Assembly (NCBI RefSeq): GCF_029203285.1
Contig: NZ_CP115669.1
Span: 5,828,001 to 5,892,000, forward strand
Reading direction: 5' to 3'
DNA length: 64,000 bases
Source: Pseudomonas sp. PSE14
GTDB taxonomy: Bacteria > Pseudomonadota > Gammaproteobacteria > Pseudomonadales > Pseudomonadaceae
Position numbers and translations under genes: made by a program. Positions 1-57,513 of the stretch are shown here, one piece after another. The notes under the pieces were generated by a model, which was not told the origin of the DNA, searched no databases, and saw only the letters and a program-made list of their open reading frames with translations. The stretch's first letter is position 1. The number at the start of each line of letters is the position of its first letter.

Positions 1-915
1 GCGCGAGTTGGCCGAGCAGACTTCGCCCTGGTTGAAGAAGATGCCGAAGGCGGCCTTCTCGGCGGCGAGATCGAGGTCGCGGCAGTCGGCGAACACCAGG
101 TTCGGGCTCTTGCCGCCGCACTCCAGCCAGACCTGCTTGAGGTTGGACTGGGCGGAATACTGCATGAAGTACTTGCCAACCTGGGTCGAGCCGGTGAACA
201 CCAGGGCGTCGACGTCCGGGTGCAGGCCGAGGGCCTTGCCGGCGGTCTCGCCCAGGCCCGGCACGACGTTCAGCACGCCTTCGGGCAGGCCGGCTTCCAG
301 TGCCAGCTCGGCCAGGCGCAGGGCCGAGAACGGCGACTGCTCGGCGGGCTTGAGCACCACGGAGTTGCCGGCGGCCAGGGCCGGCGCCAGCTTCCAGGCG
401 GCCATGTCGAGGGGGAAGTTCCACGGCACCACGGCGCCGATCACGCCCAGCGGGGTGCGGGTGATGGTGGCCAGGGCGTTCTGCGCAGTCGGCGCGACCT
501 GGTCGTAGAGTTTGTCGAGGCTTTCGGCGTACCAGGAGAACACGCCGGCAGCGCCGGGCACGTCGATGTTCCAGGCGTCCATCACCGGCTTGCCCATGTT
601 CAGGGTGTCGAGCAGGGCCAGTTCGTCGCGGTGCGCCATCATCAGTTCGGCGAGCTTGAGCAGCACGACCTTGCGCTCCCGCGGCGCCATGCGCGCCCAG
701 GGGCCTTCTTCGAAGGCCTGGCGGGCGATGCGCACGGCGGCGTCGACTTCGGCCTCGCCGCAGGCAGCGACATTCGCCAGCAGACGGTTGGTCGCCGGAT
801 CGATGGAAGCGAAGGTGGCGCCGTCACGAGCGGCCACGCGGCGGCCGCCGATCAGGGCGCTGTCGATGAAGGTCTGCCGGGCAGCGCGCTGCTGCCAGTC
901 GTTGAGCTCGTACAC
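1..915 (-). CDS. Aldehyde dehydrogenase (NAD-dependent, PuuC/AldH-like), C-terminus cut by window edge
   Basis: An NAD(P)+-dependent aldehyde dehydrogenase of the ALDH superfamily, oxidising an aldehyde to its acid in the cytosol. 305 codons are visible; the last part of the catalytic domain and the oligomerisation domain lie beyond base 1. Seen: the substrate/cofactor stretch PWNFP, the Rossmann motif FTGST, the general base in LECGGKSP (about E265) and the nucleophile in NQGEVCS (about C300). The N-terminal region resembles the gamma-glutamyl-aminobutyraldehyde dehydrogenase (PuuC/AldH) branch, but the substrate is an inference. The GTG start at 915 was preferred to the adjacent TTG because GGAG lies 7 bases upstream. 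A 183-base gap holding an AT-rich stretch (about 1000-1035) separates it from the nitrilase-like gene on the same strand and probably contains its promoter. Confidence 0.93.
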   Translation of the reverse strand, partial: MYELNDWQQRAARQTFIDSALIGGRRVAARDGATFASIDPATNRLLANVAACGEAEVDAAVRIARQAFEEGPWARMAPRERKVVLLKLAELMMAHRDELALLDTLNMGKPVMDAWNIDVPGAAGVFSWYAESLDKLYDQVAPTAQNALATITRTPLGVIGAVVPWNFPLDMAAWKLAPALAAGNSVVLKPAEQSPFSALRLAELALEAGLPEGVLNVVPGLGETAGKALGLHPDVDALVFTGSTQVGKYFMQYSAQSNLKQVWLECGGKSPNLVFADCRDLDLAAEKAAFGIFFNQGEVCSANSR

Positions 916-1098
916 CAAGGCACTCCTGCTTCAGTCGCGTCGAGGCGACTTTGTTTGTTCTGGATGTGCAATCGATGGTCGCCCAAGCCCCGGCATAGGA
1001 AAATTATTAAATTTGTCTTCGGGGTATATGAAAAAGCTGGGCAGCACGCACCACGTCGGTTCGCGGTGGGCCGACGCGCACCGCTTCGGGCCACTTCG

Positions 1099-1899
1099 TC
1101 AACGGGTGAGCGCGCTGTACATCTCCGGGCGGCGACCAGGCAGATAGGGGAAAGTCTCGCTCAGGCGGGCGCGCTGGTTCGGATCCAGGTCGACCAGCAG
1201 CAGGCTTTCGCCCGTACCCGCCGCCGCCAGCCGTTCGCCATCGGGCGCAGCGACGCAGGAACCGCCGAGAAACTGCAGCCCCTCCTCCACCCCGCAACGA
1301 CTGCAGCAGGCGACGAACAGCTGGTTCTCCAGCGCCCGCGCCGGAGCGATCACGCTCGATACCACGCCGTATTCGGGGGTCAGCGCGGTGGGGATGAGCA
1401 CCAGCCCGGCGCCGTTCAGGGCATGGGTACGCACCGCCTCGGGGTATTCCAGGTCGACGCCATTGAGCAGCCCGATGCGCCAGCCGGCGTATTCGAAGGG
1501 CTGCGGCAGGCGATCGCCGGCGCTGAACAGCTCCGCTTCCATGGCGCCGAACAGGTGCGTCTTGCGGTAATGGGCGATGGGCTCGCCGCTCGGGCCGATC
1601 ACCTGCACCGAGTTGTACGGCTTGCCGCCCTGGGGATGGCGTTCGGCGTAGCCGTAGGCGATGGCGACGCCCAGGCGCCGCGCCACCAGCTCGCCGATGC
1701 AGCGCGCCGACGGTCCGTCCGCCGCCTCGGCCAGCTCGGCCATGCGCTGCGGGACGTTGTAGCCGCCCAGCCACAGCTCCGGGCACAGCAGCAGCTGCGC
1801 GCCGGCAGCCGCGGCGGCATCGGCCTGGCGCTCCAGCTGTTCGAGATTGCCGGCGATGTCACCGGGAAGTCCGCAGGTCTGCCACAAGGCGATGCGCAT
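1099..1899 (-). CDS. Carbon-nitrogen hydrolase (nitrilase superfamily) lacking the catalytic cysteine
   Basis: A 266-residue protein with the whole nitrilase-superfamily fold, most like the R-stereoselective amidase (RamA) / deaminated-glutathione amidase type. The catalytic Glu is seen in LCPELW (E41) and the Lys in YRKTHLFG (K113). At the nucleophile site the family has G-L-L-I-C-Y-D-x-E-F-P-E, but this protein reads G-L-L-N-G-V-D-L-E-Y-P-E, so Cys is replaced by Gly147 and the two flanking residues also differ. The reading frame is otherwise uninterrupted, so it is either a pseudoenzyme or has an unusual mechanism. The ATG at 1899 was chosen because GGAG lies 9 bases upstream and the MRIALWQ start matches the family; the open frame continues upstream only through unconserved sequence. 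It is divergent from the LysR gene at 2090. Confidence 0.88.
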   Translation of the reverse strand: MRIALWQTCGLPGDIAGNLEQLERQADAAAAAGAQLLLCPELWLGGYNVPQRMAELAEAADGPSARCIGELVARRLGVAIAYGYAERHPQGGKPYNSVQVIGPSGEPIAHYRKTHLFGAMEAELFSAGDRLPQPFEYAGWRIGLLNGVDLEYPEAVRTHALNGAGLVLIPTALTPEYGVVSSVIAPARALENQLFVACCSRCGVEEGLQFLGGSCVAAPDGERLAAAGTGESLLLVDLDPNQRARLSETFPYLPGRRPEMYSALTR

Positions 1900-2089
1900 G
1901 AGCTTTACTCCGAGCTGCGTGTAGGAAAATTGCGCGGTCGCCGGAGTATGCCCGTGCCCGGCGGGACGCAGCAGACGGTCAAGGCCATGAAAAATGTGGT
2001 CGGCGGCGAGGAAAATCTTCGCCACGGGCCGCCCCCGCGGGCAGGCGCAACACGGTATCTTGTATAAAAAAGCATCAACGAGGCGTGCA

Positions 2090-2998
2090 GTGGCTTCCTA
2101 TACCTTGCGGCAATTGAAGTATTTCGTGACCACCGTGGAATGCGGCAGCGTGGCCGAGGCCTCGCGCAAGCTGTACATCGCGCAGCCATCCATCTCCACG
2201 GCGATCAAGGGTCTGGAGGAGAGCTTCGGCGTGCAGCTGTTCATCCGCCACCATGCCCAGGGCGTGTCGCTCACCCCCAGCGGCGCGCGCTTCTACCGCA
2301 AGGCGCAGGAACTGCTGCGCATGGCCCATGAGTTCGAGCAGAACGCCCTGGCGGACAACGACGTGGTGGCCGGGCAGATCGACATCGGCTGCTTCGAGAC
2401 CGTCGCCCCGCTCTACCTGCCGCGCCTGATCGCAGGCTTCCGCGAGCGCTATCCGGGGGTGGAAATCCGCATCAGCGACGGCGAACAGCAGGAACTGGTG
2501 CAGGGCCTCACCGCCGGCCGCTTCGACCTCGCGCTGCTCTACGACCACGACCTGGACGGCACCATCGCCACCGACCCGCTGATGCCGGCCCAACGGCCCT
2601 ATGCGCTGCTGCCGGAGGACCATCGCTTCGCCCAGCAGGACAAGGTGTCCCTGCGCGACCTGGCCTTGGAGCCGATGATCCTGCTCGATGTGCAGCCAAG
2701 TCGTACCTATTTCGTGAGCATCTTCGAGGAACTGGGACTGAACCCGCACATCGCCTTCAGCTCGCCGTCGATCGAGATGGTGCGCGGCATGGTCGGCCAG
2801 GGCTTCGGTTTCTCGGTGCTGGTCACCCGCCCGCACTCGGAGTGCACCTACGACGGCAAGAAGGTGGTGATGGTGAACATCGCCGAGGACGTCAGCGCCT
2901 CCGGCCTGGTCGCCGCCTGGCTCAAGCGCGCCCAGCTGACCAAGCCGGCGCAGCTGTTCGTCGACTACGCGCGGGAAGAGTTGAGCGGCAAGCACTGA
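2090..2998 (+). CDS. LysR-family transcriptional regulator
   Basis: A 302-residue LysR-type regulator. The N-terminal winged helix-turn-helix (about residues 5-62) reads LRQLKYFVTTVECGSVAEAS followed by a canonical recognition helix with QPSISTAIKGLE. A substrate-binding domain follows from about residue 90 to the end, with the typical RFDLALLY strand. The GTG start at 2090 places the HTH at the usual distance from the N-terminus and has GAGG 6 bases upstream; the longer upstream frame is unconserved. It diverges from the nitrilase-like and aldehyde dehydrogenase genes and is the natural candidate regulator for them. The inducer is unknown. A weak T-rich/A-rich segment (2058-2072) sits in the 190-base divergent region. 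Confidence 0.93.
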   Translation: MASYTLRQLKYFVTTVECGSVAEASRKLYIAQPSISTAIKGLEESFGVQLFIRHHAQGVSLTPSGARFYRKAQELLRMAHEFEQNALADNDVVAGQIDIGCFETVAPLYLPRLIAGFRERYPGVEIRISDGEQQELVQGLTAGRFDLALLYDHDLDGTIATDPLMPAQRPYALLPEDHRFAQQDKVSLRDLALEPMILLDVQPSRTYFVSIFEELGLNPHIAFSSPSIEMVRGMVGQGFGFSVLVTRPHSECTYDGKKVVMVNIAEDVSASGLVAAWLKRAQLTKPAQLFVDYAREELSGKH

Positions 2999-3016: not shown

Positions 3017-3190
3017 GTAGGAGCGAGCTTGCTCGCGAACCCGCCCAACTGCAGGGCTGTTCGCAAGCAAGGACTGGGCGCCCCTCGCTCCCGCAAAAGC
3101 CGTCCAAACGTCCCCCACAGGAGCGGACCATGCCCGCGATTTTCCGGCCCGGTACCGTGCCGTGCGATTCGCGAGCAAGCTCGCTCCCAC
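3017..3190. repeat. Cluster of three REP units, including one insertion variant
   Basis: Three Pseudomonas REP units occupy most of the 333-base gap 2999-3331. A forward unit (GTAGGAGCGAG..TTGCTCGCGAAC) spans 3017-3040. An inverted unit at 3059-3094 carries a 12-base GC-rich insert between its two halves. Another inverted unit spans 3167-3190. The opposed outer units could fold into a long hairpin at RNA level, as in REPIN pairs. The rest of the gap (3191-3331) shows only a possible -10 (TACAAT, 3288-3293) ahead of the next gene. Confidence 0.9.
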
Positions 3191-5281: not shown

Positions 5282-5350
5282 TGTAGGAGCGAGCTTGCTC
5301 GCGAACCAGGTCCGCAGTGGGGCCGGTTCGCGAGCAAGCTCGCTCCCACA
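5282..5350. repeat. REP pair (inverted)
   Basis: Two REP units in head-to-head orientation (about 5283-5306 and 5326-5349) separated by a short GC-rich loop, immediately after the thioesterase stop codon. The arms are almost perfectly complementary. Confidence 0.92.
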
Positions 5351-14779: not shown

Positions 14780-14872
14780 GTAGGAGCGAGGGGGACGCCT
14801 AGTTCTTGCTCGCGAACAACACCTACCGGCAGCTCCGACGCTGGTCGGTTCGCGAGCAAGCTCGCTCCTACG
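14780..14872. repeat. REP pair with an insertion in the left unit
   Basis: The left unit has the normal halves GTAGGAGCGAG and CTTGCTCGCGAAC, but they are separated by a 14-base GC-rich insert (14791-14804). The right unit (about 14849-14872) is a standard inverted copy. The pair lies between zwf and the U32 gene. Confidence 0.88.
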
Positions 14873-24276: not shown

Positions 24277-24345
24277 GTAGGAGCGAGCTTGCTCGCGAAC
24301 AGGCCCCACCGCGGGATTTGGTTCGCGAGCAAGCTCGCTCCTACA
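24277..24345. repeat. REP pair between convergent dnrP and norD
   Basis: A standard head-to-head REP pair (24277-24300 and 24322-24345) between two converging transcripts. No U-tract terminator is visible nearby, so the REP hairpin may itself protect or end both mRNAs. Confidence 0.92.
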
Positions 24346-35827: not shown

Positions 35828-35905
35828 GTAGGAGCGGGCTTGCTCGCGAACGGATTCACCGGCGGCTCTGGCGCCGAGATGTTCGCGAGCAAGCTCGCTC
35901 CTACA
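35828..35905. repeat. REP pair between uvrD and the Kef gene
   Basis: Head-to-head REP units with a one-base variant in the left arm (GAGCGGGCTTG). It separates convergent uvrD and the antiporter gene. Confidence 0.92.
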
Positions 35906-42077: not shown

Positions 42078-42154
42078 GTAGGAGCGAGCTTGCTCGCGAA
42101 CCCGCCTCAAGGCGGATTTGCAGGAAAGCGTTCGCGAGCAAGCTCGCTCCTACG
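42078..42154. repeat. REP pair inside the aminotransferase-GS unit
   Basis: A head-to-head REP pair in the 128-base gap between two same-strand genes, a place where it may dampen or differentially stabilise the two parts of one transcript. Confidence 0.92.
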
Positions 42155-47316: not shown

Positions 47317-47401
47317 GTTCGCGAGCAAGCTCGCTCCTACAGGTCAGGTCTGAGCTGCTTTTCGTAGGACCGAGGGGGACGCCCAGTCCTTGCTCGCGAA
47401 C
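47317..47401. repeat. REP pair in reversed order, with insertion variant
   Basis: A standard inverted unit (47317-47340) comes first; the second unit (47364-47401) has the 14-base GC-rich insert also seen near 14791. Both lie between converging antiporter and pdxY genes. Confidence 0.9.
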
Positions 47402-57489: not shown

Positions 57490-57513
57490 GTTCGCGAGCA
57501 AGCTCGCTCCTAC
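57490..57513 (-). repeat. Single REP unit
   Basis: One isolated inverted REP unit, without a partner, just after the end of the flavoprotein gene (minus strand) and before copy B. Confidence 0.88.

Follow-up and report, generated by a model that had tools for sequence, protein, structure and literature searches.

A nitrilase-fold protein of Pseudomonas without its nucleophile cysteine is maintained by selection and has a similarly altered counterpart in a second lineage

The amidase NitN of Nesterenkonia AN1 (PDB 3hkx and 5jqn; mutants 4izs, 5nz5 and 5ny7) has its cysteine at position 145. Human beta-ureidopropionase is inactive when Cys233 is replaced by alanine or serine, and its substrate still shifts the oligomer state of the C233S form; GABA is listed as an associative ligand of this enzyme (available part of PMC10741476). 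The C167A form of human Nit1 still binds Fhit (excerpt of PMC9913352), and a prozyme, a dead paralogue that activates an enzyme, has also been described (excerpt of PMC6221367). Pseudoenzymes are a known kind of protein. Searches of open-licence papers turned up no natural nitrilase-superfamily protein that lacks the nucleophile, a state seen here in two lineages, while older or subscription work may hold one. We describe such a protein, encoded in a window of 64,000 nucleotides (the whole stretch of DNA that was analysed) from a Pseudomonas genome consisting of one contig of 5,977,163 bases (G000).

The gene lies at 1099..1899 on the minus strand and its frame is intact, as the initial annotation had claimed: it is open over 266 amino acids plus the stop and encodes a nitrilase-fold (CN_hydrolase) protein without the catalytic Cys. 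The start codon is the ATG at 1899, with a likely ribosome-binding site, GGAG, at 1908..1911 (minus strand); the mechanical list of open reading frames begins this frame further upstream, at 2025. Residues 2-242 match Pfam CN_hydrolase with 163.6 bits (cut-off 23.2) and the predicted model has a pLDDT of 89; by fold and sequence the protein belongs to the nitrilase superfamily. Its scores stay below the curated NCBIfam cut-offs for nitrilase (NF040852, 117.3 vs 500 bits), AguB (TIGR03381, 96.5 vs 410.25 bits) and deaminated glutathione amidase (NF033621, 82.2 vs 355 bits). Two residues of the catalytic triad remain, in agreement with the first reading of the sequence: Glu41, the general-base position (1777..1779, minus strand), and Lys113 (1561..1563, minus strand), each of which is present in 47/47 aligned homologues. 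Glu121 (1537..1539, minus strand), which we take to be the second catalytic glutamate, is retained too and is aligned with Glu in 21 and with Asp in 22 of the 43 Cys-bearing homologues. The nucleophile itself is missing, the residue at position 147 being Gly. Judged from its sequence, the protein belongs by its fold to the nitrilase superfamily while its triad disqualifies it as an enzyme of that superfamily, and we infer that standard acyl-thioester amide hydrolysis is abolished.

The remodelled nucleophile block, residues 146-150, is at 1450..1464 (minus strand) and reads N-G-V-D-L within L-L-N-G-V-D-L-E-Y-P-E, with a GGC codon for Gly147 at 1459-1461; Cys orthologues of the genus have ICFDV. 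The initial annotation had set N-G-V-D against an expected I-C-Y-D. The replacement of Cys by Gly147 stands, while the norm of the subfamily is ICFD and not ICYD. A sequencing error at about 1456-1470, which it had named as a possible explanation, was rejected: the proteins of G019 and G022 (94% identical to the window protein) have the same NGVDL block in separate assemblies, and further columns are altered alongside. Gly is thus conserved throughout the window clade, in 3/3 species.

The distribution of the two forms was examined in 47 distinct aligned homologues, kept from 67 tblastn matches after removal of repeats and of matches not starting at residue 1. Column 147 is Cys in 43 of them and Gly in four. 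Cys is also present in the removed rows of the window's own genome (L002, L003 and L007), where 10 of the 11 CN_hydrolase matches keep it and the window gene is the exception. Orthologues within the genus (at least 62% identity) were found in 15 of the 25 genomes searched, and four of these carry Gly147 (the window genome, G019, G022 and G005), which excludes the suspicion that homologues at this locus all carry Cys; the remaining 11 do carry it. The fourth Gly protein, that of G005, is 62% identical to the window protein and has its Gly147 in the block LGVEL. This second Gly147 lineage, with its parallel changes, was not foreseen by the initial annotation. All ten orthologues from another genus of the family (g14) and the Acidocella orthologue have Cys, so that no Gly form was seen outside the genus among these; a search of sampled genomes of the order gave known matches only, and one of sampled genomes of the phylum added a single row (G1059, 46-47% identity), which carries Cys. 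A plasmid search returned 555 matching records, each below 60% identity. No second close copy was found in the Gly genomes, and an active close duplicate elsewhere in G000 was rejected, the next best match being a paralogue of 51% identity. Since orthologues of sister species at the same locus carry Cys (ICFDV), the Gly state is derived, and the Cys nucleophile was lost in the ancestor of at least three Pseudomonas species.

The window gene is an orthologue of Cys-bearing amidase-like proteins in the NitN/DavA-like part of the superfamily, and it opens a catabolic cluster of the amine/polyamine type. The LysR/ALDH context noted earlier was confirmed: a divergent LysR-family regulator gene lies at 2090..2998 (plus strand) and an aldehyde dehydrogenase gene at 1..918 (minus strand; 306 of its 497 amino acids are encoded within the window and the gene extends into the upstream genome), whose best NCBIfam match is PuuC, below the cut-off of that family. 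The aldehyde dehydrogenase is followed by a class III aminotransferase, a PotD-like binding protein, an NCS1 permease and a histone-deacetylase-fold protein, the last presumably acetylpolyamine amidohydrolase-like. From its gene content the cluster looks like a pathway that takes up an amine, transaminates it to an aldehyde and oxidises this to an acid, and of which the amidase-like protein looks like an accessory part. In the window's own genome, about 6.4 kb past the left end of the window, an AMP-binding acyl-CoA ligase gene (L061 11988-13565) adjoins the deacetylase-like gene; the corresponding stretches of G019 and G022 gave no match to it at that position.

In 17 Pseudomonadaceae loci (the window, L062-L068 and L039-L047, with some genomes represented twice) the gene is flanked by the divergent LysR gene and the aldehyde dehydrogenase, then the class III aminotransferase. 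The PotD-like binding protein and the NCS1 permease were found in 6/6 genus genomes with long flanks and the histone-deacetylase-fold gene in five of them, G011 lacking it. Genes on both flanks match among G000, G019, G022, G006, G005 and G011, and hence a single locus carries either the Gly or the Cys form. At the Acidocella locus (L053) the permease and dehydrogenase genes are present, with LysR and aminotransferase matches absent, and none of these neighbours accompany L048-L052 (41-47% identity). In the other genus the neighbours of the core include a choline dehydrogenase-like enzyme and an importer that has an NMT1-type binding protein: at L066 and L067 the polyamine-type genes are replaced, next to the nitrilase-like, aldehyde dehydrogenase and aminotransferase genes, by an ABC importer and a choline dehydrogenase-like GMC oxidoreductase, which hints that the core may serve different amines.

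The upstream region is preserved in Gly and Cys species alike (12 loci aligned). An imperfect palindrome between the divergent genes, GCGAGGAAAATCTTCGC at 2006..2022, is by its position a candidate LysR site; it is identical in eight of the 12 aligned regions, those of the three Gly trio species and of five Cys species. The remaining four, including G005, have a loosely similar sequence. Elsewhere in the window, the sequence GGAGCGAGCTTGCTCGCGAA occurs in 13 copies within two mismatches, 12 of them exact, and in none of 100 shuffles. The copies are at 3020-3039, 3168-3187, 5286-5305, 5327-5346, 14849-14868, 24280-24299, 24322-24341, 35831-35850, 35882-35901, 42081-42100, 42131-42150, 47318-47337 and 57491-57510; ten of them are arranged as five facing pairs, whose starts lie 41-148 bases from each other, and three are single. 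By their appearance they resemble the REP elements of Pseudomonas.

To place the loss we used a tree of 42 of the 47 rows (L004, L033, L006, L008 and L054 were omitted as distant). The window trio, namely the proteins of G000, G019 and G022, groups with ten Cys orthologues of a sister group (98/99), and G005 groups with the Cys orthologue of G011 (100/99). A tree constrained to unite the four Gly rows is worse by 64.6 log units (AU p = 9.5e-5, in a test for which the Gly group was picked after the residues were known and in which L023, the G005 row, is a long one). With the ten remodelled columns removed, L023 still groups with L022 (100%) and the trio with its Cys sister clade (98%). By the tree and the AU test a single origin of Gly147 by descent was rejected, and no long gene-conversion tract was seen, while there are short patches in which the window resembles G005 more closely than it does its sister.

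These patches bear on the possibility that short gene conversion carried a Gly block of single origin from one lineage to the other, which we regard as very unlikely. The window and G005 are nearly identical in the stretch GGC GTC GAx CTG GAA TAC CCC GAG GCG GTG, but differ at residues 146 and 149, and while Arg201 is encoded by CGT in both, the codon at 200 differs and the patch 200-201 sits about 150 bases from the block. Over residues 145-156 the window bases are closer to G005 (0.86) than to the Cys sister L012 (0.78), as they are in 4 of the other 21 bins; in 17 of the 22 bins the window is closer to L012 or tied. At the third positions of residues 138-160 it agrees with G005 in 16/23 and with L012 in 14/23, but equally well, in 17/23, with the Cys gene L022. 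Even if copied, a tract of about 30 bases was retained in both lineages.

The alteration is not confined to the nucleophile, as had first been supposed: Gly147 is part of a wider change, and the statement that the rest of the protein is conserved holds for the fold and fails for several other columns in which the Cys orthologues are all alike. We compared 26 of 27 rows (one identical row was removed), with 22 hand-picked Cys rows, the locus-type orthologues and Acidocella, serving as reference rather than all 43. Of 99 columns invariant in these 22, the window trio breaks eight (146, 147, 150, 181, 190, 198, 200 and 201) and G005 breaks 11. Six columns are broken in both Gly lineages (146, 147, 150, 181, 200 and 201; hypergeometric chance 1.05e-5), three of them to the same residue (147 G, 150 L and 201 R), and Phe/Tyr148 has become Val in both. 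In 1,000 replicates simulated under LG+G4, which has no column-specific preferences, the maxima were four shared and two identical columns, and they were the same in 1,000 replicates under C20 with its 20 profiles; the simulations averaged 92.8 and 60.6 invariant columns, respectively, vs 99 observed. With such models, and with a measure chosen after the pattern had been seen, the simulations overstate the surprise.

Of the residues that recur, L150 is found in one and R201 in four of the 43 Cys rows, and G147 and V148 in none; Cys-bearing rows outside this set have L150 (L003, L007), R201 (L002, L007, L076) and D200 (L007). A control comparison of two Cys groups, the ten sister orthologues vs L022, scored on the 116 columns that do not vary in the remaining 11 Cys rows, gave three columns changed to the same state (152, 217 and 230), for which common descent within the genus may be the explanation; on the same 116 columns the Gly pair shares eight changed columns, five with the same state. 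A loss of catalysis lifts constraint from the same columns in each lineage, and the sharing of columns is therefore by itself no proof of adaptation.

Positions 181, 198, 200 and 201 presumably line the pocket. Residues 198-201 of the window protein (1297..1308, minus strand) read C-C-S-R, where Y198, N200 and H201 are invariant in 22/22 Cys orthologues; S200 and R201 are among the parallel changes, and C198 belongs to the window clade only and is fixed there. The resulting Cys pair C198-C199 (window 1303-1308, L010 and L011) could be a site for a metal, a disulphide or a replacement nucleophile. It also enters the reading that the protein carries out another reaction, for example by direct attack of water with Glu41 as the base or with C198/C199 as a nucleophile of the window clade. 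Coordinated changes in the pocket region would suit a new reaction, and Glu41, Lys113 and Glu121 are kept in all four Gly rows. However, G005 keeps Tyr198, and C199 occurs in 19 of the 43 Cys-bearing relatives, so no replacement nucleophile was seen that sets both Gly lineages apart; furthermore, the Cys-to-Ala and Cys-to-Ser variants of beta-ureidopropionase are inactive (available part of PMC10741476). Altered chemistry thus seems decidedly unlikely.

To see whether the gene is maintained, we estimated dN/dS, a measurement that the initial annotation had proposed. Within the Gly trio the values were 0.119, 0.130 and 0.080 (95% ranges 0.065-0.212, 0.065-0.233 and 0.032-0.151), that is, 0.08-0.13, which points to purifying selection as among the Cys orthologues: four pairs of the Cys sister group gave 0.132, 0.099, 0.129 and 0.112, and a separate set of five pairs 0.054-0.132. 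Between the window and the sister group the value was 0.204, above those within groups. The 19 positions that vary in the trio spare Glu41, Lys113, Glu121 and block 146-150. Both forms of the gene evolve faster than most of their neighbours. The stem of the trio is longer than that of the Cys sister when all columns are used (0.126 vs 0.067), and equals it outside the ten remodelled columns (0.075 vs 0.081).

These figures weigh on the view that the gene is a relic, in which the amidase step was lost and slow decay is reaching the catalytic columns first. Lost catalytic constraint would by itself predict changes at the same columns in two lineages, and the G005 copy (L023 1501-2289) looks the part: its branch is about four-fold that of its Cys sister (0.29 vs 0.073), the pairwise dN/dS between the two is 0.32, and it has a one-residue deletion near Glu121. 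The long branch and the deletion fit relaxed selection in G005, whose copy may have reached another stage of repurposing or be decaying. A neutral relic would, however, approach a dN/dS of 1, far from the values of the window clade, whose three species have no stop or frameshift, keep the upstream region and show an ordinary stem outside the ten columns. The relic reading is therefore disfavoured for the window clade, and overall we hold it very unlikely. With a catalytic residue lost and both the fold and purifying selection kept, the window protein is probably a pseudoenzyme, and the gene is, on this comparative evidence, a maintained pseudo-amidase rather than a case of ordinary decay.

That the protein is kept intact by selection, and that a second lineage has undergone a similar change, suggests a new and probably non-cutting use. 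Over all its rivals we favour, tentatively and somewhat short of calling it probable, a ligand-binding pseudo-amidase, which would bind an amide or acid of the pathway without hydrolysis and have a regulatory read-out. We favour it because Cys-to-Ala amidases hold amides, the C233S enzyme shifts its oligomer state and the Nit1 mutant binds its partner. The structural matches of the model, taken from a VIA-align comparison, include, per entry titles, NitN C145A with butyramide (4izs) or nicotinamide (5ny7) and PH0642 C146A with glutaramide (6ypa); such engineered nitrilases, holding amides in their crystals, make ligand binding by the window protein plausible. In the mechanism we propose, Gly147 would open space in the pocket, Glu41 and Lys113 would still polarise the bound carbonyl or carboxylate, and Arg201 would contribute a positive charge. 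The protein might then hold an amide or acid of the pathway uncut, for which the make-up of the cluster hints at a GABA-type or other omega-amino acid; the occupied state would be relayed through the oligomeric assembly, and in this way the protein would provide the cluster with feedback or buffering.

Alternatively, the dead protein may act by contact, as a structural or activating pseudo-subunit. It would either be mixed with the Cys-bearing DavA-like paralogue, to which it is about 50% identical, or sit on one of the neighbouring enzymes, aldehyde dehydrogenase or aminotransferase. An intact fold under ordinary selection fits such a subunit, and Nit1 C167A with its Fhit binding (excerpt of PMC9913352) and the prozyme (excerpt of PMC6221367) are precedents. 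A Cys-bearing paralogue is present in G000, G019, G022 and G005, but it is found also in genomes with Cys at the locus, and its presence is therefore untied to the Gly change. Moreover, the parallel changes, among invariant columns, cluster at the nucleophile block, 181 and 200-201 instead of being spread. We thus consider a pseudo-subunit rather unlikely. Returning to the ligand-binding pseudo-amidase, its boldest form, which we consider possible but doubtful, is that a nitrilase-fold amidase at an amine-cluster locus was converted twice into a non-hydrolytic ligand binder through nearly the same pocket changes (Cys147Gly, Phe148Val, Val150Leu and His201Arg, along with 146, 181 and 200), giving a natural sensor that would tune a LysR-controlled pathway. 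The same gene order with the Cys form in sister species and the Gly form here amounts to a natural experiment, and the pairing lets non-catalytic roles of the fold be probed by allele swap.

How does the window protein compare with the known systems? The Cys orthologues at this locus in other species of the genus (L012-L022; 64-82% identity) have the same neighbours, where the flanks were read, and the same type of upstream region; unlike the window protein they carry ICFDV with Cys147, P181, N200 and H201. The DavA-type omega-amidase paralogue (G000:C1:2619518-2620303), which we take to be DavA, is 51% identical to the window protein over the whole length, retains its Cys (ICFDVEFPE) and sits elsewhere in the genome. 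The C233A and C233S forms of beta-ureidopropionase resemble the window protein in having a nitrilase fold without the nucleophile, but they are engineered, human, octamer-forming and distant (24% in the structural alignment). Likewise, the Cys-less forms of NitN are laboratory mutants, whereas the loss in the window protein is natural and comes with further changes. Close Cys orthologues at that locus fix its place, two lineages show it, and it leaves a Cys-less form on which selection can be measured.
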